A stretch of 64,000 nt of DNA from Rhodocyclaceae bacterium (GTDB lineage: Bacteria > Pseudomonadota > Gammaproteobacteria > Burkholderiales > Rhodocyclaceae): contig JADFDU010000006.1 of the NCBI GenBank assembly GCA_018262775.1, forward strand, positions 1 through 64,000, given 5' to 3'. The notes below the pieces were generated by a model. It saw only the letters and a list, made by a program, of their open reading frames with translations. It did not search any database and was not told the DNA's origin. Positions 5,427 through 21,183 of the stretch are shown here, piece after piece. Each line of letters opens with the position of its first letter. Within the stretch, counting starts at the first letter, position 1. The position numbers were made by a program, and so were the translations under genes.

Positions 5427-5852
5427 TCAAACCTGTTTGTGGGATTCAATAATCGCCGCGTGCAGGGTCTCGAAGGGCAGCAGTACGCAGCCGTGGCGGT
5501 TGCGGTGCGGGCGCACCGGCTCGAAGAGGGAAAGTTCCGACCAGCCGGGCGGCGGCGCAGCGCCGGCGAGTGTGGCGGCGACCTGCTCGCTTAACGCAGC
5601 AGCTTCTTCCGCATTCAATCCAGTGCCGTGCAGGCCGACCAGCGAGGCGGCGGCGCGGCACAGCAGGCAGCCCTTCACGTCGTGGGCGAGGGCCTTGACA
5701 CGTCCATCCTCCAGCACCACCTGCATGCGCACGCGATCGCCGCACAGCGGGCTGTCGCGCAATGCAGTACCGTCGGGTGACGGCAGCGTACCGGCACCGT
5801 GGCCGGCCTTGGCGAGATCGAGCAGCGCCTGCTGGTAGAGATCGTCGTTCAT
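5427..5852 (-). CDS. NifU/SufU-like iron-sulfur cluster scaffold
   Basis: A 141-residue protein of the IscU/NifU N-terminal family, closest in layout to SufU. Conserved ligand cysteines are visible at 37 (SPLCGDRV), 62 and 65 (KGCLLCRAAASL) and 122 (RHGCVLLPFETL). It is the last gene of the cox-like operon and overlaps the desulfurase gene by 4 bases. SufU proteins accept persulfide sulfur from SufS-type desulfurases, so the pair probably delivers sulfur or iron-sulfur clusters to the molybdenum hydroxylase encoded upstream. That target is inference. Confidence 0.85.
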   Translation of the reverse strand: MNDDLYQQALLDLAKAGHGAGTLPSPDGTALRDSPLCGDRVRMQVVLEDGRVKALAHDVKGCLLCRAAASLVGLHGTGLNAEEAAALSEQVAATLAGAAPPPGWSELSLFEPVRPHRNRHGCVLLPFETLHAAIIESHKQV

Positions 5853-7063
5853 GTCAATCGCCTGATCACGTCGCGCATGCCTTCGAGCAGCGCGTCGATG
5901 TCGGCCTCATCGTTGTAGGGGGCGATGCTGGCACGCACGGCACCCTGCACACCAAAGAAGTCCATCAACGGCTGCGCACAGTGATGGCCGCCGCGCACAG
6001 CAACGCCACGCTCGTCCAGAACCTGGCAAATGTCGTGCGGATGGATGCCGGGCAGATCGAAGGCGACGATGGGCAAACGCTCGCGCATGTCGCGCGGCCC
6101 GATGAAAGTCAGTCCCGGCAATACGGCGAGGCCGTCGATCAGTCGCTGCGCGAGACGCGCCGTATGGGCATTCAGGGCGGTCCACGGCTGCTCACGCAAC
6201 CAATCGAGCGCGGCGCCCAGGCCGATGGCCTGGGCGATGGGCGGCGTGCCCGCCTCGAAGCGGCGCGGCGGCAGTGCATACGTCGTCTGCTCGGCGCCGA
6301 CGCGGCCGATCATGCCGCCGCCGCCGAGGAAAGGCGGTAGCGCCGCCAGCGCCTCGGCTTTCCCCCACAGCACGCCGACGCCGCTCGGGCCGAAGGCCTT
6401 GTGGCCGGAGAAAGCATAGAAATCCGCGCCGAGTGCGGCGACGTCCACCGGCCCGTGCTGCACCGCCTGGGCACCGTCGAGCAGGACGCGCGCGCCGACG
6501 GCCCGCGCCGCCGCAACGACGGGCACCAGGTCGGTGATCGCGCCGGTGACATTGGAAGCGTGGGTGACGGCGACGAGGCGGCAGCGCGGCGTGATGAAAT
6601 CGCCAAGACGCGCGAGATCGAGACGACCTTCAGTCGTCAGCGGCAGAATGCGCAGCGTCACGCCACGCCGCTCGCGCAGCATCTGCCAGGGGACGAAATT
6701 GCTGTGGTGCTCGGCGAGGCTCAGCAGCACCTCGTCGCCGGCTTTGAGGCCTTCGCCGAAGGCATGTGCGACCAGGTTGATCGAGGCCGTGGTGCCCGCG
6801 GTAAACACGACTTCAGCGTCACTTGCGGCATTGAGATACTTCGCAACCTGCTGCCGCGCGTTCTCGTAGGCGCTATCGGCCAACTCGGCGAGGCGGTAGG
6901 TGCCGCGCAGGACGTTGGCGCGATGCGTCAGCTCATGGTGTGTGACGGCGTCGAACGCCGCCTCGCATAGCTGGCCGGTGGCGGCATTGTCGAGGTAATG
7001 CAGCCGCGGATGGTTCGCCAGCAGCGGAAAATGCTTGCGCCAGGCAGCGGCCTGAAAAGTCAT
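5849..7063 (-). CDS. SufS/CsdA-type cysteine desulfurase
   Basis: A 404-residue class V aminotransferase-fold, PLP-dependent enzyme that releases sulfur from cysteine as an enzyme-bound persulfide. The PLP lysine is in YAFSGHKAFGPSG and the persulfide cysteine is in VRGGHHCAQPL near residue 360. The short loop around this Cys marks it as group II (SufS/CsdA). It overlaps both neighbours by 4 bases and lies between the Moco nucleotidyltransferase fusion and the NifU-like scaffold. This suggests service to Moco sulfuration or [2Fe-2S] assembly for the hydroxylase rather than general Fe-S supply. Confidence 0.9.
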   Translation of the reverse strand: MTFQAAAWRKHFPLLANHPRLHYLDNAATGQLCEAAFDAVTHHELTHRANVLRGTYRLAELADSAYENARQQVAKYLNAASDAEVVFTAGTTASINLVAHAFGEGLKAGDEVLLSLAEHHSNFVPWQMLRERRGVTLRILPLTTEGRLDLARLGDFITPRCRLVAVTHASNVTGAITDLVPVVAAARAVGARVLLDGAQAVQHGPVDVAALGADFYAFSGHKAFGPSGVGVLWGKAEALAALPPFLGGGGMIGRVGAEQTTYALPPRRFEAGTPPIAQAIGLGAALDWLREQPWTALNAHTARLAQRLIDGLAVLPGLTFIGPRDMRERLPIVAFDLPGIHPHDICQVLDERGVAVRGGHHCAQPLMDFFGVQGAVRASIAPYNDEADIDALLEGMRDVIRRLT

Positions 7064-8706
7064 CGGCCGTCCAGCGCGCGCAGATTGTCCGGAGTGTCCA
7101 CGTCGGCGAGGATGGCGTCGTCGTCCATGTCAACGAAGCGCAGGCGCCGGGGGTTGCCCTCGAGCAGGCCGCGCGCGCCCTGATCGCCGCTCACCGTCTG
7201 CATGGCTGCGAAGAACTCGCGCGGCCAGAGGACGGGATTGCCGCGCCGCCCACTGCGTTGCGGCACGATGATCGACGGACACTTCGCCTCGAAGGCATCG
7301 ATGAGGCGGTCGACATGCACGGCATTCACGCGCGGCATGTCGGCGAGCAGCACGATCACCGCTGCCGCCTCCGCTGGCAGCGCACCGATGCCGGCGCGCA
7401 GAGAGGTGGACATGCCCTGGGCGTATTCCGGGTTGCGCACGATGTTGAGCGTGCGCCCGGCGAGCAGCGCCTCGGCCTTGTCCGCCTCGTGGCCGAACAC
7501 CACCGTCACCGAGGCCGCCTTTGAAGCCAGCGCGGCGTTCACCGCGCGCAGCAGCATCGGCACGCCGTCGACTTCCTGCAACAGCTTGTTGCTGCCGCCC
7601 ATGCGCGAGGACTGCCCGGCGGCGAGCACCAGTGCGGCGACATTGGCCATGCCGGCCGGCACGGCGGCGACGCTGTCGACCTCGCCCTCCTCTTCGTCCT
7701 CCGCTTCGAGCGGACTGCGGATGAGTCCGCCGACGCCCATGCGCATGATCTCGGCGCGCCCGAGCGGCAGACCGGCATGCAGGCGCTGCAGCACCCAGTC
7801 GAGTCCGTTCGAGCGGCGCGAACGCGCGCAGCCGGGCAGCACCAGCACCGGCGCGGGAGCAGCGACGGATGGGAGTCCCCCGGGAACGTGCGCGAGCAGC
7901 AGCATGTTGCCCGGTTCGGCCGGCATGCCGAAATGATCCACGACGCCGCCGATGTCCGTCACCGCAGCAGGCACGACATCGAGGCGGTCCTTGGTCACCG
8001 TGGCACCGGCCACCAGCAGCAGGTCGCAGCCGGCGGCAAGCGCTTCGCGCAACTTTGCCGCGTATTCACTGCGTTCATGGCGGCAGCGCAGCACCAGGGC
8101 GAGGCGGCTGCCGAGGCCTTCCAGCCGGTTGCGCGTAGCCGTGACGGTGCCGCGGAAGACGTTTTCCTTCATGCCCGGCAGTTCGCCCATGATCAGCGCA
8201 GCGCGGCGCGGCTGCAGCGGGGCGAGCCGCAACAGCGGTCCCGAGGCGGCGATGGCGCGGCAGCGCTCGACCAGTTCGCGCGTCACCGCAAAGGGAATGA
8301 TCTTCACCGTGGCGAGCACCTGGCCCTGGCGCGCCAGCGCGTAGTCTGGCAGCGTGCCGATGGCGATCGCCTCGTCGAGTTCGTTGAGGGCGTCGATGCG
8401 CGCGACATCCACCCGCAGCACACCGCGCAGCGAGGCATGCACGTTGCAGCGGCCGGTATAGGGGCGGCGGGTTTCGGCATTCGGGCCGACCAGCAGCGCG
8501 GCGATCTCGGTGGCGCCGGTATTCTCGTCGAGGTCGCCCTCGCCCATGCGGGCGCCGGTGATGCGCTCTATGCCAGCCTGTTTGAGCAGTGCGACGTCGG
8601 CCGCGGTGAGGACGCGGCCTTTCCTCAGGGTTTTTTCGCCGAGATTCAGCGTGTGGGCCAGCGTGACGCCCTCGGCTTCCTCGCAGCTGAATTCGCCGAA
8701 GATCAT
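7060..8706 (-). CDS. molybdopterin-binding domain fused to MobA-like nucleotidyltransferase
   Basis: A 548-residue two-domain protein. Residues 1-340 form a MoeA/MogA-like molybdopterin-binding region. Residues 355-548 are a MobA/MocA-type NTP transferase with the signature LAAGQSSRMGGSNKLL and a DMPRV metal-binding motif. Such fusions are thought to attach CMP to Mo-molybdopterin, giving the cytosine dinucleotide cofactor used by xanthine-dehydrogenase-family enzymes. The start at 8706 gives a 4-base overlap with xdhC; an upstream in-frame extension to 8895 lies wholly inside xdhC and is rejected. Confidence 0.88.
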   Translation of the reverse strand: MIFGEFSCEEAEGVTLAHTLNLGEKTLRKGRVLTAADVALLKQAGIERITGARMGEGDLDENTGATEIAALLVGPNAETRRPYTGRCNVHASLRGVLRVDVARIDALNELDEAIAIGTLPDYALARQGQVLATVKIIPFAVTRELVERCRAIAASGPLLRLAPLQPRRAALIMGELPGMKENVFRGTVTATRNRLEGLGSRLALVLRCRHERSEYAAKLREALAAGCDLLLVAGATVTKDRLDVVPAAVTDIGGVVDHFGMPAEPGNMLLLAHVPGGLPSVAAPAPVLVLPGCARSRRSNGLDWVLQRLHAGLPLGRAEIMRMGVGGLIRSPLEAEDEEEGEVDSVAAVPAGMANVAALVLAAGQSSRMGGSNKLLQEVDGVPMLLRAVNAALASKAASVTVVFGHEADKAEALLAGRTLNIVRNPEYAQGMSTSLRAGIGALPAEAAAVIVLLADMPRVNAVHVDRLIDAFEAKCPSIIVPQRSGRRGNPVLWPREFFAAMQTVSGDQGARGLLEGNPRRLRFVDMDDDAILADVDTPDNLRALDGR

Positions 8707-9392
8707 GTGCGGTATTTCCCCTGAATGACCTGCGCCAGCACCGACACGGCAATCTCCGCCGGCGAGCGCCCGCCCAGATCCAGCCCGACCGGCGCATGGA
8801 TGCGCGGGATGGCTTCGGCCAACCCGGCTTCGGTGAGCCGCGCCACGCGCTTGGCATGGGTGCGCGAGCTGCCCAGCGCACCGATGTAGAAGCACGGGCT
8901 TTGCAGCGCGGCGATCAGCGCCGGATCGTCGAGCTTGGGATCATGCGAAAGCGTCACCACCGCGGTCTGCGCATCGAGGCCGATGCGCCCCAGCGCCTCG
9001 TCCGGCCACTCCGTCGTCACCGTCACGCCGGGCAGGCGCTCCGATGTCGCAAAGGCACGGCGCGGATCGACGACGATCACCTCGAAGCCGGCCATTGCCG
9101 CCATCGGCGCCAGCGCCTGGGTGATGTGCACGGCGCCGACGATGACCATGCGTGGCGCGGAGGCGTAGCAGCGAGCGAAGAGCGCGCCGCCGGAAGATTC
9201 CAGCGCACCACTCTTGTCGGCACGCAGGCGGCGCTTGATCTCGTCGAACTGTTCCGGTGCGAGTTCGAGGTCGCCGCTGGCCGCACCGTCGCGCACCAGC
9301 GCCTGGGCGCCGTCGGCGAGGCGGGTGACGAGGGTGACCGAGCGCTTGGCGGCGCGCTCAACCAGTAATTGTTCGAAGAGTTCGGTTTTCAT
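8703..9392 (-). CDS. xdhC: XdhC-family Moco insertion/sulfuration chaperone
   Basis: A 229-residue protein. The C-terminal two thirds is the XdhC Rossmann-like domain (RMVIVGAVHITQALAPMA, VIVVDPRRAF, VTLSHDPKLD, YIGALGSSRTHAKR). The N-terminal part is a divergent XdhC/CoxI domain lacking an obvious SGGC motif. XdhC proteins bind Moco, protect its sulfurated form and hand it to the large subunit. The start at 9392 (MKTELF) gives a TGATG junction with the preceding gene. The missing classic N-terminal motif is present in the GTPase fusion at 16205-17386, so the two may act together. Confidence 0.88.
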   Translation of the reverse strand: MKTELFEQLLVERAAKRSVTLVTRLADGAQALVRDGAASGDLELAPEQFDEIKRRLRADKSGALESSGGALFARCYASAPRMVIVGAVHITQALAPMAAMAGFEVIVVDPRRAFATSERLPGVTVTTEWPDEALGRIGLDAQTAVVTLSHDPKLDDPALIAALQSPCFYIGALGSSRTHAKRVARLTEAGLAEAIPRIHAPVGLDLGGRSPAEIAVSVLAQVIQGKYRT

Positions 9393-9969: not shown

Positions 9970-11214
9970 TCAGGCTGCGCGCGGCTCCTGGCGGCGCATC
10001 CCGGGTGGTTTCGCGAGAACCCGGCCAAGATCGGCCAGGCTCTCCAGGTTATGCGCCGGCAGAAACAGGTCGACGTGCGGACGCATGGCGGCGATGCCGG
10101 CGGCACGCGCCTCAAAACCCTCGTAACGCAACAAAGGGTTCAACCAGATCAGTTGGCGGCAGGATTTGTGCAGGCGCTCCATCTCGACCGCGAGCGCCTC
10201 CCCGCCATCGCGGTCGAGGCCATCGGAGAGCAGCAGCACGCAGGCATTCTGCCCCAGCAGCCGGCGCGACCAGAGACGGTTGAAATCATGCAGGCAGATG
10301 CCGATGCGCGTGCCGCCGGCCCAGTCCTTGACCCGCGCCGAGACCCGGTTCAGCGCCACGTCCACGTCGCGCTGGCGCAAATCGCGCGTGATGGACGTCA
10401 GCCGCGTGCCGAAGAGCAGCACCGAAACGCGCCGGCGGGCCGAGTAGTGGTTATTGCTCAGGGCGTGCACGAAATGCAGGAACATGCGCGCATAGCGGCT
10501 CATCGAGCCGGAGACATCGACCAGGATCACCAGCGGCGGCGGCACGGTGCGCGGCGTGGCACGGCGCAAGGGGATCACGTCGCCATAGGCGGCAATGGCC
10601 GCCTTTAGCGTGGCCCGCCGGTCGATGCGCCGGCCGTGCGGATCCGGCGCCAGGCGGCGGGTGCGCACCTCGCGCAGGGGCAACAGCAGGCGTGAAATGA
10701 ACTGCCGCGCCGCCGCCAGTTCGGCGCCGGTCATCGATTCGAAATCCATCTGTTGCAGGAGTTCGCTCGACGAGAAGCTAAGGAAGGCGTCGATCTCGAT
10801 TTCCTGCTCGGGCTGCTGCGGCAACGTCGGCGCCTCGGGCGCGCCGCGGCCGAACGCCTCCTGCAAGCGGTGATGCGTCTTGTCGCGCTCCGCCGGCAGG
10901 CCTTCGACCTTGGGCAGCATCATGTGCATGATGCGGCCGAGCAGATCGGGATCGCGCCAGAACATGTGGAAAGCCTGGTCGAAAAGCTCCCGCTGCTCGC
11001 GACGATCGACAAAAACGCTGGCCAGCGTCCAGTAGAAGTCCTCGCGGCGACCGATGCCGGCGTAGTTCAGGGCGTCGAGCGCCGCCAGCACCTGATGCGT
11101 TCCTACCGGCATGCCGGCGGTGCGCAGCACCCGCGCAAAGTGCATCACGTTCTCGGCGAGGCGGCCGCCCTCGGCCGCCGGCATCCGCAGGAGCGTCACG
11201 GGCCGGTCCCCCAT
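9970..11214 (-). CDS. coxE: CoxE-like von Willebrand factor A protein
   Basis: A 414-residue VWA protein. The N-terminal half is helical and CoxE-specific; the C-terminal half has the MIDAS motif VDVSGSMSRYA. With the MoxR-type ATPase CoxD, CoxE remodels the active site of CoxL-type enzymes, in Oligotropha by building the Mo/Cu centre. The ATG at 11214 directly abuts a palindromic repeat (11215-11235) whose GGAAGG may act as ribosome site. An alternative start is 11184 (MPAAEGGRLAEN). Confidence 0.88.
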   Translation of the reverse strand: MGDRPVTLLRMPAAEGGRLAENVMHFARVLRTAGMPVGTHQVLAALDALNYAGIGRREDFYWTLASVFVDRREQRELFDQAFHMFWRDPDLLGRIMHMMLPKVEGLPAERDKTHHRLQEAFGRGAPEAPTLPQQPEQEIEIDAFLSFSSSELLQQMDFESMTGAELAAARQFISRLLLPLREVRTRRLAPDPHGRRIDRRATLKAAIAAYGDVIPLRRATPRTVPPPLVILVDVSGSMSRYARMFLHFVHALSNNHYSARRRVSVLLFGTRLTSITRDLRQRDVDVALNRVSARVKDWAGGTRIGICLHDFNRLWSRRLLGQNACVLLLSDGLDRDGGEALAVEMERLHKSCRQLIWLNPLLRYEGFEARAAGIAAMRPHVDLFLPAHNLESLADLGRVLAKPPGMRRQEPRAA

Positions 11215-16204: not shown

Positions 16205-17386
16205 TTATCCGACCCGCTCCACGAACACCTGCACACGTCCGCCGCAGGCCAGCCCGACTTCCCAGGCACGCTCGTCAGAGACGCCGGATTCGAGCAGGCG
16301 CGGCTGGCCGTCGGCAATGGTGGCCTGCGCCTCGGCGATAACGGCGCCCTCGATGCAGCCGCCGGAAACCGAGCCGACAAAGGCACCGCCCGCCTCCACG
16401 GCAAGATGGCTGCCCTCCGGCCGCGGCGAGGAACCCCAGGTCTTCACCACCGTCGCCAGCGCCACGCTCCTGCCGGCAGTACGCCAGCGGCTCAGTTGGG
16501 CGAAGAGTTCCTCGTCCGTCGCCTGCGGCGCCACATTCCCACTCCCCTCTCCCGCGCGCGGGAGAGGGGCCGGGGGAGAGGGCAAATCAGTGCGCTTGAG
16601 GCGTTTGCCAATTCCCGTGGTTCTGCCGTGTTCCTCGATAGCATCGACCAGCGCAGCAATCCCCTCGCCGCTGGTCGCCACCGTGCGTAGCACCTGCACC
16701 TGCCAGTCACTCCGATGACGCAGACGGACGGCCGTCTTGAGATCGAGCACGGTGCGCTCGGCCTGCGGCAGATCGGCCTTGTTCACCACCAGCAGATCGG
16801 CGATCTCGATGATGCCGGCCTTGATGGCCTGCACATCGTCGCCCAGTCCGGGCGGGCAGATGACGATGTTGCTGTCGCCAAAGTGGCGGATCTCCACTTC
16901 CGACTGACCGGCGCCGACCGTCTCGACGATCACCACGTCGAAGCCGACGGCGTCGAAGACGTCGATGATGCGCCCGGTGTGGCGCGACAGGCCGCCGAGA
17001 TAGCCGCGCGCGGAAACGGAACGGATGAAAACATCGTCGCGGGAGCCGTGCTCGTCCATGCGCAGGCGGTCGCCGAGTATGGAACCGCCGCTGATCGGGC
17101 TGGAGGGGTCGACAGCGACAACAGCGACGCTGCGGCTGCGCTTGGCATATTCGCCCAGCAGTGCATTGATGAGGGTGGATTTGCCGGCTCCCGGCGCTCC
17201 GGTGATGCCGACGATGTGGGCACGACCGCAGCGCGGCGCCAGTTCGGCCATCAAAGCTTCAGCGCCGGGGCGGTCGTTTTCCAGCAGCGTGATGGCCCGC
17301 GCCAACGCAGGACGGGAGCGGTTCAGAATGGCTTCAAGGTCGATTCCCGCACTCGGCTTCATATGAAGTACCGCCAAAGGTTGCAT
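16205..17386 (-). CDS. MeaB/ArgK-type GTPase fused to XdhC/CoxI N-terminal domain
   Basis: A 393-residue fusion. Residues 1-265 are a SIMIBI GTPase of the MeaB/ArgK (LAO/AO ATPase) family: P-loop GITGAPGAGKST (about 60-71), VDPSSPISGGSILGDR, VIVETVGAGQSE and NKADLPQ. Residues 290-393 form an XdhC_CoxI domain with WGSSPRPEGSHLAV and SVSGGCIEGAV. The linker (about 270-285, PPAPLPRAGEG) is encoded by a palindromic repeat. MeaB proteins normally guard B12-dependent mutases, but no mutase is nearby. The XdhC half and location point to Moco-enzyme maturation. Start uncertain: 17386 or 17362. Confidence 0.85.
   Translation of the reverse strand: MQPLAVLHMKPSAGIDLEAILNRSRPALARAITLLENDRPGAEALMAELAPRCGRAHIVGITGAPGAGKSTLINALLGEYAKRSRSVAVVAVDPSSPISGGSILGDRLRMDEHGSRDDVFIRSVSARGYLGGLSRHTGRIIDVFDAVGFDVVIVETVGAGQSEVEIRHFGDSNIVICPPGLGDDVQAIKAGIIEIADLLVVNKADLPQAERTVLDLKTAVRLRHRSDWQVQVLRTVATSGEGIAALVDAIEEHGRTTGIGKRLKRTDLPSPPAPLPRAGEGSGNVAPQATDEELFAQLSRWRTAGRSVALATVVKTWGSSPRPEGSHLAVEAGGAFVGSVSGGCIEGAVIAEAQATIADGQPRLLESGVSDERAWEVGLACGGRVQVFVERVG
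16544..16583. repeat. palindromic repeat, family B, inside a coding sequence
   Basis: A perfect 26-base palindrome (CCCCTCTCCCGCG and its complement, 16544-16569) is followed by a second partial GGGGGAGAGGG arm. It is read in frame as the PPAPLPRAGEG linker of the GTPase-XdhC fusion. The same unit occurs between genes at 18521-18614. Confidence 0.85.
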
Positions 17387-17424
17387 GCATTATTCTGCAT
17401 TTATGGTTTTATTGATGCAGTACG

Positions 17425-17454
17425 TTGCAGTTTTAAATCGTATCATGCTATAAA
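17425..17454 (+). promoter_or_regulatory. sigma-70-type promoter for the three-gene unit
   Basis: TTGCAG (17425-17430), an 18-base spacer and TATAAA (17449-17454) precede the first small gene by about 35 bases. This 100-base divergent region, AT-rich by local standards, must also hold the promoter of the GTPase-XdhC gene on the other strand. Confidence 0.55.
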
Positions 17455-17488
17455 TTGATTCGTATCCCGACACGGCAGCGTGGCTTTC

Positions 17489-17875
17489 ATGGAAGACGGA
17501 TTTCTCGATTGTGCAGCTTGGCAATCCATGCTCGATCGCGAGGGCATGCCCGCATCGAGCGCCTCCATCGGCTTGCTGCGGCGAGACGATTTCACCGCAC
17601 GTTGCGGTACCCTGCTTGTGTGGTGTAGCGACACCACAGGCTACCGCGCTGTACTGCGCGAGTATAACGGACGGGCAAGCGAGGATGTGGCCGTGTTGCT
17701 GGTGGCCGATGCTGACGCACTGACGGCCCTGCGCGAGGAGGGATGGGCGCCCCTGCCGGGACTGATCCGGCAAGGACGGCTGCATCCCTACATGCTGAAA
17801 ACCATGGACGAACTGGAAGCGGCCGGACTGGCCGAGTTCGTCGAAGACCTTGGACTGGTGTTCCCCAAGCACTGA
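17489..17875 (+). CDS. unrecognised small protein A of a three-gene unit
   Basis: A 128-residue soluble acidic protein with no family I recognise. It is paralogous to the next gene product: both begin with an AAWQSML/ADWQAML motif, contain VAVLLVADADALTALRE/VDLLFVADSEAMAILRD, and end with DELEAAGLAEFVEDLGLVF or its equivalent. The ATG at 17489 is preferred; a GTG at 17480 is possible. It overlaps the next gene at TGATG and lies divergent to the GTPase-XdhC gene, so a link to Moco-enzyme maturation or to its substrate pathway is plausible but unproved. Confidence 0.7.
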   Translation: MEDGFLDCAAWQSMLDREGMPASSASIGLLRRDDFTARCGTLLVWCSDTTGYRAVLREYNGRASEDVAVLLVADADALTALREEGWAPLPGLIRQGRLHPYMLKTMDELEAAGLAEFVEDLGLVFPKH

Positions 17876-18342
17876 TGACTGTTGCAACTGAAAGCCTCTT
17901 CGGCGAAGTAGCGGACTGGCAGGCCATGCTGGTTCGCCACGACGAGTTGTTCACCGAGATGGTGCCCGGCTCGAGCGTGGCCATCGTGCCGAGGGACGGT
18001 TCCGGCATCCAGCCTGGCAAGCACGTCGCCGGCCTCATGGCCGCCGACGGCGCCGGCGAGATGCTGCGCTGGGAAGTCACGCCGAACGGCATGCGCGCCG
18101 CGCTCGCACCCTATCGCGGCTTCCAGGAGGCGAAGGTGGACCTGCTCTTCGTTGCCGACAGCGAGGCGATGGCAATACTGCGCGACAACATCGGCGACGA
18201 CACGTTGTCGCTGATGAAGCGGCAGATCCGCACCGGCAACATCATGTTCTTCGTCATGCGCACGAAATACGAGTTGCAGGACGCGGGCTACGAAGAATTC
18301 CTCGACACGCTCGGCCTGGCCTTCCTGGGAGCCTGCCGATGA
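17875..18342 (+). CDS. unrecognised small protein B, paralogue of protein A
   Basis: A 155-residue protein sharing three blocks with the preceding product (ADWQAML; VDLLFVADSEAMAILRD; YELQDAGYEEFLDTLGLAF). It has an additional central segment (PGKHVAGLMAADGAGEMLRW). The start codon overlaps the upstream stop (TGATG) and the stop overlaps the next start (ATGA), which implies translational coupling and a complex or fixed stoichiometry. No signal peptide, membrane segment or catalytic motif is apparent. Confidence 0.72.
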   Translation: MTVATESLFGEVADWQAMLVRHDELFTEMVPGSSVAIVPRDGSGIQPGKHVAGLMAADGAGEMLRWEVTPNGMRAALAPYRGFQEAKVDLLFVADSEAMAILRDNIGDDTLSLMKRQIRTGNIMFFVMRTKYELQDAGYEEFLDTLGLAFLGACR

Positions 18343-18518
18343 TCTTCACCAACCCATCCGGCGCCCCGGAACTGGCCTGCGAGCAGTGCGGCTGCCGCTG
18401 GTTCGACCGCATGACCAACACCTGCTACGAGTGCGGCACCGAGGTCACGGCGCAGATGCAGATCGAATTCGAACAGGCGCTGAAGGATTTCCAGGCGAAG
18501 AAGCAGGAGCAGAATTAA
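18339..18518 (+). CDS. small zinc-ribbon protein
   Basis: A 59-residue protein with two cysteine pairs, CEQCGC near residue 14 and CYECG near residue 30, forming a zinc-ribbon knuckle. A helical acidic/lysine tail follows (QIEFEQALKDFQAKKQEQN). The start overlaps the upstream stop by 4 bases. Zinc ribbons of this size often serve as protein-protein or nucleic-acid adaptors. With proteins A and B it makes a translationally coupled triad of unknown role. Confidence 0.72.
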   Translation: MIFTNPSGAPELACEQCGCRWFDRMTNTCYECGTEVTAQMQIEFEQALKDFQAKKQEQN

Positions 18519-18520
18519 CA

Positions 18521-18614
18521 CTCCCTCTCCCGCTGGCGGGAGAGGGTTGGGGTGAGGGTGGAATCGGCAAAATACCCCTCACCCTAGCCCTCTCCCCGCA
18601 AGCGGGGAGAGGGG
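18521..18614. repeat. pair of palindromic repeats, family B
   Basis: Two hairpins in tandem: CCCTCTCCCGC/GCGGGAGAGGG (18523-18546, loop TG) and CCCTCTCCCCGC/GCGGGGAGAGGG (18588-18613). They are joined by GGTTGGGGTGAGGG and its counterpart CCCTCACCCTAGCC. They lie 3 bases after the zinc-ribbon stop and before the SDR gene, and could act as a terminator or mRNA stabiliser. Confidence 0.8.
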
Positions 18615-18656
18615 ACTGAGCGTAAAGCGGAGAGAAGCCTTGAGGGGAAACACGCA

Positions 18657-19403
18657 ATGCTGTTGAAGGACAAGATCGCAATCGTCACCGGCGCCGGCCA
18701 GGGCATCGGCGCCGCCATCGCCCGGGCCTACGCCAAAGAGGGCGCCAAAGTGGCGGTGGTCGACATGAACGCCAAGGCCGCCGATGAAGTCGCCGCTGCC
18801 ATCCGCCAAGACGGCGGCGAAGCGAAAGGCTTCGCCTGCAATGTCGCCGAGCGCGCCTCGGTCGACAAGATGGTGGCCGACGTCACCGCCGCATGGGGCC
18901 GCGTCGACATCCTGGTGAACAACGCCGGCATCACGCGCACCGCCATGCTGCACAAGATGACGCCGGAACAATGGCATCAAGTCATCGACGTACACATGAA
19001 CGGCAGCTTCTACTGCCTGCAGGCGGTGGTAAACGGCATGATCGAGCGCAAGTTCGGCCGCATCATCAACGTCACCTCGGCCGCCGGCATGCTTGGCACC
19101 ATCGGCCAGATCAACTACAGCGCCGCCAAGGCCGCCATCGCCGGCATCACCAAGTCGGGCGCGAAGGAACTCGGCCGCCACGGCATCACCGTGAACGCCA
19201 TCGCCCCGGGCGCCGCCACGCCGATGACCGAAGTGATCCGTACCGACGAGCGCTTCAAGGACAAGTACCTCGAGCGCATCCCGCTCGGCCGCTGGGCCGA
19301 ACCGCATGAGGTGGCGCCCGCCTTCGTCTTCCTCGCCTCGGACGGGGCGAGCTACATCACCGGACAGATCCTCGCCGTCGACGGCGGACTGACTATTCGC
19401 TAA
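18657..19403 (+). CDS. FabG-like short-chain dehydrogenase/reductase
   Basis: A 248-residue classical SDR. It has the TGAGQGIG cofactor motif, NNAG, catalytic Ser in VTSAAGM, YSAAK (Tyr/Lys) and the C-terminal [11 protein letters not shown]. An Asp after the second strand (VVDMNAKA) suggests NAD(H) rather than NADP(H). It is 26 bases upstream of glutaryl-CoA dehydrogenase on the same strand and is likely a 3-hydroxyacyl-CoA dehydrogenase of the same acyl-CoA route. GAGGGG precedes the start. Confidence 0.88.
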
Positions 19404-19429
19404 TCATTTATTTGGAAACGGGAACCGCC

Positions 19430-20623
19430 ATGAACAAACCGACCGAGAAATTCAAAGCCGCCTTCAAGTGGGACGACCCCTTCCTGCTGGACGAGCAGCT
19501 CAGCGAGGAAGAGCGCATGGTGCGCGACACCGCCTATGCCTATTCCCAGGAAAAGCTGCAGCCGCGCGTGCGCGAGGCTTTCGAGAAGGAGCACACCGAC
19601 ATCGCCATCTTCCGCGAGATGGGTGATCTCGGCCTGCTCGGCTGCACCATCGAGGGCTACGGCTGCGCCGGCCTCAATTACGTTTCCTACGGCCTCATCG
19701 CCCGCGAGGTCGAGCGCGTCGACTCCGGCTACCGTTCCATGATGAGCGTGCAGTCTTCGCTCGTCATGCACCCGATCAACGCCTACGGCACCGACGCGCA
19801 ACGGGAAAAGTACCTGCCCAAGCTCGCCACCGGCGAATGGATCGGCTGCTTCGGCCTGACCGAGCCGAACCACGGCTCCGACCCCGGCAGCATGATCACC
19901 CGCGCCAAGAAAGTGCCCGGCGGCTACTCGATTTCCGGCGCCAAGATGTGGATCACCAACTCGCCCTTCGCCGACGTCTTCATCGTCTGGGCCAAGACCG
20001 AGGACAACGTGATCCGCGGCTTCATCCTGGAAAAGGGCATGAAAGGCCTCTCCGCGCCGAAGATCGAAGGCAAGCTCAGCCTGCGCGCCTCCACCACCGG
20101 CGAGATCGTCATGGACGAAGTGTTCGTGCCGGACGAAAACTGGCTGCCCAACGTGCAGGGCCTCGGCGGCCCCTTCGGCTGCCTCAACAACGCCCGCTAC
20201 GGCATCGCCTGGGGCGCGCTTGGCGCGGCGGAATACTGCTGGCAGGCCGCGCGCCAGTACACCCTCGACCGCAAGCAGTTCGGCCGCCCCCTCGCCGCCA
20301 CCCAGCTCGTGCAGACCAAGCTCGCCAACATGCAGACCGAGATCACCCTCGGCCTGCAGGCCTGCCTGCGCGTCGGCCGCCTCAAGGACGAGGGCAAGTG
20401 GACGCCGGAGATGATTTCCCTGATCAAGCGCAATTCCTGCGGCAAGAGCCTCGACATCGCCCGCATGGCGCGCGACATGCACGGCGGCAACGGCATCTCG
20501 GGCGAATACCACGTCATCCGCCACATGGTGAACCTGGAGACGGTGAACACCTACGAAGGCACGTATGACGTCCACGGCCTCATCCTCGGCCGCGCGCAGA
20601 CGGGAATCCAGGCATTTTCCTGA
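19430..20623 (+). CDS. gcdH: glutaryl-CoA dehydrogenase
   Basis: A 397-residue acyl-CoA dehydrogenase of the GcdH branch. It oxidises and decarboxylates glutaryl-CoA to crotonyl-CoA with FAD. Family markers are [39 protein letters not shown] and the C-terminal [17 protein letters not shown] with the catalytic glutamate. Glutaryl-CoA comes from lysine degradation and from anaerobic benzoyl-CoA breakdown. The ATG at 19430 is preferred to the TTG 18 bases earlier. A repeat and a strong terminator follow. Confidence 0.93.
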
Positions 20624-20835: not shown

Positions 20836-21183
20836 ATGGCCATCAAGCGCGAAGAATTGAAAGGAATGAATTTCCAGAATGTGGCCACTGGCCGCCGCCT
20901 GGCGCCGGTGCATCCCGGCGAAGTACTGATGAAGGACTTCATCGAACCGATGGAACTCACCCGCTACAAGGTCGCCAAGCTTGCCGGCGTGCAGCAGCGT
21001 CGCATTGACGAGATTTGCGCCGGCCAGCGCGGCATCACGGCCGATACGGCGTTACGCCTTGCCAGGCTTTTCGGCACCGATGCGCAGTTCTGGGTCAACC
21101 TTCAGGCGCAGTACGATCTGGAAACGACCGAAAGGGAGATGCGCAAGCGCATCGAGCAGGAAGTCACGCCCCTCGCCGCCTAG
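20836..21183 (+). CDS. higA: HigA-family antitoxin, orphan
   Basis: A 115-residue HigA/VapI-type helix-turn-helix protein. The HigA entry motif PVHPGEVLMKDFIEPM (about 24-40) is followed by the HTH (TRYKVAKLAGVQQRRIDEI) and the conserved LARLFGTDAQFWVNLQAQYDL. TAGGAGG lies 6-9 bases upstream. Only a remnant of the HigB gene precedes it, so it can no longer neutralise a local toxin; it may act as a stand-alone regulator or as an antidote to incoming toxins. Confidence 0.88.
   Translation: MAIKREELKGMNFQNVATGRRLAPVHPGEVLMKDFIEPMELTRYKVAKLAGVQQRRIDEICAGQRGITADTALRLARLFGTDAQFWVNLQAQYDLETTEREMRKRIEQEVTPLAA

Follow-up and report, generated by a model that had tools for sequence, protein, structure and literature searches.

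Which enzyme or pathway do three small, overlapping genes of a Rhodocyclaceae bacterium serve? The genes, here called A, B and Z, lie in the window, i.e., the whole stretch of 64,000 nucleotides that was analyzed. A reading of the letters alone (the sequence-only reading) had described them as a translationally coupled triad of two paralogues and a zinc ribbon, perhaps a small unknown complex acting on neighboring enzymes that depend on the molybdenum cofactor (Moco).

Organization of the A-B-Z locus

The TGATG and ATGA junctions of the triad and the protein sizes of 128, 155, and 59 residues were confirmed, as was the divergent orientation of A and the GTPase-XdhC fusion gene (Table 1). The good promoter claimed for the triad was not recovered, as a sigma-70 scan of positions 17200-18800 gave 0 sites, with 0.2 expected. 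The SDR/GcdH block downstream of Z is syntenic across much of the window's genus, and in several genomes of the genus cox genes adjoin the A-B-Z block.

Two REP-like palindromes of 24 bases with identical 11-base arms were noticed at this locus, one at 16545-16568 within the MeaB-XdhC coding sequence (about residues 274-281, between both domains) and one at 18523-18546 directly after Z; such palindromes occurred in 0 of 100 shuffles. Further downstream (20836-21183), the window encodes an HTH_3 protein, which we take to resemble a HigA-type antitoxin.

Table 1. Features of the A-B-Z locus and position of the OYE gene in the same genome
Feature	Position	Strand	Remarks
Gene A	17489..17875	+	128 aa; paralogue of B; C-terminus FPKH, not GACR
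Gene B	17875..18342	+	155 aa; C-terminus GACR
Gene Z	18339..18518	+	59 aa; zinc-ribbon-like
TGATG junction	17873..17877	+	stop TGA of A (17873-17875) and start ATG of B, one-base overlap
ATGA junction	18339..18342	+	stop TGA of B (18340-18342) and start ATG of Z, four-base overlap
MeaB GTPase-XdhC/CoxI fusion	16205..17386	-	divergent neighbor of A; frequent neighbor of A elsewhere
SDR and GcdH-like acyl-CoA dehydrogenase	18657..20623	+	downstream of Z; SDR by Pfam, GcdH named from sequence
MocA-like and SufU-like (below cut-off), SufS (over cut-off)	5427-8175		beyond the cox genes in the window
OYE of the window's genome	G000:C8:27147-29108		away from A-B-Z

The claimed paralogy of A and B held: BLASTP gave 32% over 149 columns (E 9e-16), and searches with A recovered B in relatives and vice versa. 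With a limit of E 1, Pfam, NCBIfam, and PHROGs contained no family matching either protein, and the 68 A/B members compared with Pfam hit 12 families with one member each (best E 0.0013). For Z, only weak matches below cut-off were obtained, to Zn_ribbon_15 and to FYDLN_acid; 9 of the 21 members matched the latter family (best E 5.6e-4). The statement that no recognized family is present was thus upheld for A and B, with weak matches for Z. The sole PDB match of the A and B sequence profiles, LRP2-binding protein (E 0.0078 and 0.01), was dismissed as implausible. The 21 aligned Z members share the N-terminus MIFxNPxGAPEL and five invariant Cys residues (14, 17, 19, 29, and 32), of which C14/C17 and C29/C32 form a pair of C-x2-C knuckles, mostly with Gly next. 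Within the genus, dN/dS values of 0.10-0.43 in five comparisons show purifying selection on both A and B; for Z (0.33-0.94, four comparisons) the picture is less clear.

In a text search of the open-licence full-text literature, which was not a search by sequence, A, B, Z, or the gene order OYE-B-Z described below were nowhere named. B and Z were also considered as candidates for BzdS/T/U, the unknown proteins encoded in the bzd operon of Azoarcus, a guess without textual support that was abandoned. The B-Z pair of A. evansii (L101) has acyl-CoA genes and the gene for a LuxR-type regulator as neighbors; inspection of the predicted proteins of this locus by eye revealed no bcr or bzd genes.

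B and Z form a near-obligate gene pair

We compared the 21-member Z alignment with the contigs of one genome per species (84,980 species) and retained the best 80 of 152 relatives. Sixty-five of the 80 records are labelled MAG and 15 are not, among them L118, L132, L100, L107, and L137; taxon names of MAG records such as 'Bacillota bacterium' are record labels and were taken as given. Gene calls in this high-GC DNA were made by homology and with our own scripts. The neighbor counts in the 80 loci are lower bounds; many loci end at contig ends.

B was located upstream of Z in 78 of these best 80 loci, one of the two exceptions (L074) having the start of Z at base 38 of the contig. Whole B genes were extracted from 75 of the 80 loci, leaving out L062, L074, L089, L090, and L114, and 61 of the 75 pairs showed the four-base overlap of B and Z. 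A was present in 22 loci, all of them also containing B, and in 56 loci B occurred without A within the stored DNA. The conserved unit is B-Z, a near-obligate gene pair, and not A-B-Z. The suggested small complex therefore stays plausible for B and Z, whereas a fixed triad does not, A being separable.

Three further observations were made on these loci. Only in L090 (Z at 9220-9384) does Z clearly occur alone; B was not found there, and Z is followed by SDR and GcdH genes. A thioesterase-like gene, B, Z, and a LuxR-type regulator are arranged together in nine of the 80 loci (L073, L075, L082, L084, L086, L092, L096, L101, and L125), eight of the nine in Aromatoleum; this arrangement is distinct from OYE-B-Z, and the 4HBT domain of the thioesterase-like gene was checked in L101 only. 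Finally, L109 carries a third B-like copy (10733-11092) with a different C-terminus about 0.7 kb past a B-Z pair.

B-Z is linked to an OYE flavoenzyme

A gene for a flavoenzyme of the old-yellow-enzyme (OYE) class immediately precedes the pair, giving the order OYE-B-Z, in about 37 of the 80 loci; ahead of B and with the same orientation, it was found in 38. In 36 of these 38 loci the OYE stop codon lies at most 40 nt from a possible start codon of B, the spacing being counted to possible and not to known true starts; the spacing is 333 bases in L081, and in L118 the stop that was scored is an in-frame TGA, the OYE match itself ending about 50 bases before B. None of the 38 loci contains an OYE-B fusion. 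The order OYE-B-Z recurs in records labelled Bacillota (L087, L098, L105, and L118) and Alphaproteobacteria (L115, L122, and L132) as well as in many Betaproteobacteria. Counting OYE genes with at least 60% identity, 48 of the 80 loci contain one. For the remaining 32 loci, in which two loci share one genome, OYE is encoded elsewhere in 23 of 31 genomes. Altogether 72 Z loci are in OYE-bearing genomes, and for eight of the 80 OYE was not found in the genome.

Among 199 relatives, B occurred in 26 genomes, OYE in 25, and both in 23. The mismatches were G005, G013, and G129 with B only, and G004 and G015 with OYE only. Of these five genomes only G129 was rated more than 90% complete: rated 100% complete, it has B-Z without OYE, and its B is near a contig end. 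G004 and G015 (89% and 77% complete) have OYE and neither B nor Z. Outside the genus (n=183), B was found in 13 genomes, OYE in 12, and both in 12, with one genome having B only and none OYE only. Fisher tests of this co-occurrence gave p values of 1e-24 for the 199 relatives and 6e-18 outside the genus, which overstate independence because relatives share ancestry.

Sampling that started from OYE gave the same picture. Within the order (399 genomes sampled), OYE is encoded in four, namely the window's own and three others, and in all three others B-Z lies just behind OYE. The OYE-B-Z module is a rare one: among 398 genomes sampled throughout the phylum, Z and OYE were each found in a single genome, that of the window. 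B-Z and OYE are largely co-inherited with the recurrent gene order OYE-B-Z, and A, B, and Z are therefore probably unrecognized partner proteins of OYE. The linkage could also mean a common pathway instead of contact.

OYE is related to 2-naphthoyl-CoA reductase

OYE has about 655 residues and contains Oxidored_FMN and Pyr_redox_2 domains according to Pfam. Its best PDB match by phmmer is 2-naphthoyl-CoA reductase NCR (6qkg; E 4.9e-121, residues 10-655), one of the type III (ATP-independent) aryl-CoA reductases, and OYE aligns with NCR over its length; the match to 2,4-dienoyl-CoA reductase had an E value of 2.8e-72. The architecture of TIM barrel, Fe-S linker, and FAD/NAD domain is closest to that of NCR. 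The best NCBIfam matches (mycofactocin OYE 2, BaiCD, and long bilirubin reductase) were far below their cut-offs.

For residue counts we used 67 distinct orthologues, each aligned over 400 or more residues with at least 60% identity and separated from the others by more than 6 differences. The residues of NCR named in the accessible part of PMC6502838 are Y197, the proton donor, H284, and Y320. Y197 corresponds to Y179 of OYE (P0004) and is Tyr in 67 of 67 orthologues. In contrast, the position of H284 is occupied by Gln in all 67 and that of Y320 by Asn in 56 and Val in 11. The Fe-S cluster motif differs as well: in the alignment, C-x2-C-x3-C-x11-C of NCR corresponds to C-x5-C-x11-C of OYE. 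The second cluster Cys (within residues 349-367 of P0004) is replaced in 65 of the 67 proteins, by Ser in 61, Asp in two, Ala in one, and Gln in one, and all four Cys residues of the [4Fe-4S] site are present in two (L105 and L118). Of the type III aryl-CoA reductases AprB-AprE, AprD and AprE are reported as monomeric in the available text of PMC13365417.

The OYE gene that adjoins B-Z in L118 (Peptococcaceae bacterium CEB3) contains a single in-frame TGA (7644-7646). In 78 of 80 covered OYE matches, which were not dereplicated, this position is the second Cys of GACCVSN, and in one match it is Phe. The TGA is a candidate selenocysteine codon; no Rfam match was obtained for it, and the local fold was not unusually stable.

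The OYE gene of the window's genome adjoins genes whose products exceeded the cut-offs of Had (TIGR03201) and Oah (TIGR03200). Genes for a CoA ligase, a caprolactamase-like protein, and a large oxidoreductase of the NAD(P)-binding Fe-S type fall within the same 20 kb, and two BcrAD-family genes are located at C8:38007-39688, about 9-11 kb from OYE. Elsewhere, the neighbors of OYE include benzoate- or 2,3-dihydroxybenzoate-type CoA ligases, a Rid-family protein, GcdH, and a monooxygenase that resembles salicylyl-CoA 5-hydroxylase, namely the N-terminal half of that enzyme. Several components of the aerobic ACMR pathway (2-aminobenzoyl-CoA monooxygenase/reductase) known from Aromatoleum (Azoarcus) evansii recur beside B-Z, namely RidA, CoA ligase, FMO, and OYE-type proteins, and in L055 an FMO-OYE fusion of the ACMR kind adjoins Z-B-RidA-OYE. 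Unlike in the ACMR pathway, the main reductase beside B-Z is a separate long-form Fe-S OYE. We know of no B- or Z-like protein from the ACMR work on A. evansii.

B has a predicted SCP2-like fold and a conserved C-terminal tail

Two AlphaFold2 models of B, based on 42 and 68 sequences, reached pLDDT values of 85.5 and 88.2 and pTM values of 0.82 and 0.84 and showed a nearly identical alpha/beta secondary structure; pLDDT was below 50 only in the first four or five residues and in tail residues 153-155. When the models were compared with the PDB by Foldseek, SCP2 proteins (TT1886, 1wfr; human SCP2 domains, 8af2 and 1ikt, among the top matches of both) and alkylsulfatases occupied ranks 1-18 for the first and 1-15 for the second model. 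Alkylsulfatases carry an SCP2-like domain. Only two matches of the first model and one of the second had E values of at most 0.001 (best 2.1e-4 and 3.0e-4), and query-normalized TM scores were 0.27-0.45, with rmsd values of 5.5-10.6 Å. SCP2 (PF02036) was not among the Pfam matches of A, B, or the 68 members, and hhalign of B against a small test profile of 14 SCP2-family stretches from relatives gave a probability of 0.2% (P 0.36), the short alignment being in the register expected for SCP2. Because of the modest scores and the non-significant profile test, we claim likeness of fold and not SCP2 membership: the predicted fold of B resembles SCP2, and homology did not emerge from the sequence profiles.

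B differs from SCP2 proteins by its near-obligate zinc-ribbon partner and by a conserved Cys-Arg tail. Following each B match to its stop codon, with the tail not used as a selection criterion, we found G-x-C-R at the C-terminus of 78 of 78 Z-linked copies (GACR in 73, GTCR in three, GPCR and GSCR in one each). The same tail was present in 24 of 24 copies from 27 fetched loci (L034-L060), which partly overlap the 80. The sole B-like copy with another ending was the one in L109 that does not adjoin Z. Since the tail is also retained where B and Z are up to 70 bases apart, gene overlap is not its cause.

A tracks RidA and MeaB-XdhC

The MeaB-XdhC fusion, or its XdhC part, was found in 18 of the 22 A loci and in two of the 58 loci without A. 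In A. evansii (L226 and L227), A. buckelii (L228), and three further loci (L036, L037, and L038), A lies beside RidA and MeaB-XdhC in the order OYE-RidA-A-MeaB/XdhC, with B and Z not found in the fetched stretch. This group is followed in L226 of A. evansii by a gene weakly resembling those for molybdopterin proteins and by a SufU-like one (below cut-off); L227 has FdhD (over cut-off). A tracks RidA and the MeaB-XdhC fusion, and its C-terminus is P-K/R-H in 21 of 22 copies. Across the 80 Z loci, a Rid-family gene was present in only 11, CoxL-like genes (down to 28% identity) in nine, and gcdH in 12.

On the question raised by the sequence-only reading, whether the triad always accompanies cox or gcdH, these 80 loci thus show either gene in a minority, many of the loci being cut by contig ends. 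The wider neighbors of A in the window and in A. evansii resemble Moco-maturation and sulfur-transfer genes, and the suspicion of a Moco-enzyme factor therefore has some basis for A. For B and Z it mostly fails, the bulk of the evidence leading to OYE, which is present in 48 of the 80 loci. The XdhC/CoxI Moco-insertion factors are frequent neighbors of A, and their domain was not matched in A, B, or Z by Pfam or NCBIfam.

Discussion

Gene pairing, co-inheritance, and the predicted fold and tail of B are results of the analysis; from them we infer the complex, the ligand, and the reaction of OYE-B-Z. The reading that we prefer, with a chance that we put at about even, assigns A, B, and Z as accessory proteins to a module for degradation of aromatic CoA esters built round the NCR-related long-form Fe-S OYE. 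B would most likely be a small subunit for docking or for the handling of acyl-CoA. Its SCP2-like body would hold or pass an aryl or alicyclic CoA ester at OYE; alternatively, B might shield the reduced product there. Z, the zinc ribbon, would bind the Cys-Arg tail of B and dock the B-Z pair onto OYE, and A may have an equivalent role on the RidA/MeaB-XdhC side. In the window's genus, both units are joined as A-B-Z, with OYE remaining in the Had-Oah-OYE cluster.

A different task for the same partners would be that of a maturation or metal/sulfur-transfer chaperone, in which the C-terminal Cys of B and the five Cys of Z would supply or protect the [4Fe-4S] cluster of the three-Cys OYE. The tail present in all Z-linked B copies, modelled with low confidence, would suit such a function, as would the five invariant Cys of Z, one above the need of a zinc ribbon, the replacement of the second cluster Cys in 65 of 67 OYEs, and the SufU-like, FdhD, and MeaB-XdhC genes near A in A. 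evansii. However, the four-Cys OYEs of L105 and L118 are still accompanied by a GACR-ending B and by Z, and the general SUF/ISC systems are normally sufficient for Fe-S enzymes of this kind. We consider a chaperone function unlikely on balance.

A more far-reaching version of the substrate-presenting role, which we regard as distinctly improbable, is that OYE-B-Z together with RidA and A forms an ATP-independent system reducing 2-aminobenzoyl-CoA or 2-hydroxybenzoyl-CoA and bypassing benzoyl-CoA reductase. By atom bookkeeping, 2-hydroxybenzoyl-CoA plus two electrons would yield 6-oxocyclohex-1-ene-1-carboxyl-CoA, and so would 2-aminobenzoyl-CoA plus two electrons followed by imine hydrolysis by RidA; this product would be the substrate of Oah, encoded beside OYE. 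B would present the CoA ester, and its C-terminal Cys would act at, or complete, the three-cysteine Fe-S site of OYE. A role of B as a trans-ligand of the OYE cluster is confined to this ATP-independent reading, because the two four-Cys OYEs keep the Cys tail of their B. According to a review (PMC4539516), anaerobic A. evansii converts anthranilate via 2-aminobenzoyl-CoA to benzoyl-CoA by a 2-aminobenzoyl-CoA reductase. This reported benzoyl-CoA product counts against 6-oxocyclohex-1-ene-1-carboxyl-CoA, as does the presence of Rid genes in only 11 of 80 loci. Benzoyl-CoA is described in the accessible text of PMC6502838 as the central single-ring intermediate and the substrate of ATP- or electron-bifurcation-dependent reductases. 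No gene named for a 2-aminobenzoyl-CoA reductase was found in the open-licence full-text literature. Because MeaB and a caprolactamase-like gene are present, anaerobic indoleacetate (iaa) degradation was also considered and is a lead for the context of the module; 2-aminobenzoyl-CoA is not mentioned in the part of PMC8360864 that was available.

It also seems distinctly improbable that the triad serves the cox-like molybdenum hydroxylase operon together with MeaB-XdhC. The frequent MeaB-XdhC neighbors of A, the MocA-like, SufS, and SufU-like genes that lie past the cox operon of the window, and the adjoining cox genes in several genomes of the genus fit this assignment, but CoxL-like genes occur in only nine of 80 Z loci, MeaB-XdhC is nearly confined to loci with A (two of 58 without it), and OYE is present in 48 of 80 loci.

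For Z as a rubredoxin-like electron carrier feeding OYE, with B as its docking partner, the chance appears very small: two C-x2-C knuckles mostly with Gly next would be suitable, but they are separated by eleven residues, which better fits a zinc ribbon, the knuckle spacing of rubredoxins being much longer. For NCR, an external ferredoxin-type donor is suggested in the accessible part of PMC6502838, which would speak for such a carrier. We find it just as hard to believe that A and B are aryl-CoA sensors regulating the pathway with Z as adaptor, since their small size, paralogy, and ligand-holder-like fold and the large LuxR-type regulator adjoining B-Z in nine of 80 loci are set against the lack of a DNA-binding domain in A and B by Pfam, the separate genes for LuxR- or LysR-type regulators in these clusters, and the tight OYE-B spacing, which is better suited to an enzyme partner.

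If the preferred reading holds, an NCR-like reductase with an unusual Fe-S motif and two unnamed protein families, rare and spread over several classes, would represent a CoA-dependent branch of aromatic metabolism of which we found no description. In named Aromatoleum strains, these genes would be candidates for the anaerobic 2-aminobenzoyl-CoA reductase step described for A. evansii in the available part of PMC4539516. The linkage to OYE would also provide a first functional context for two families that are nameless in the scanned libraries.
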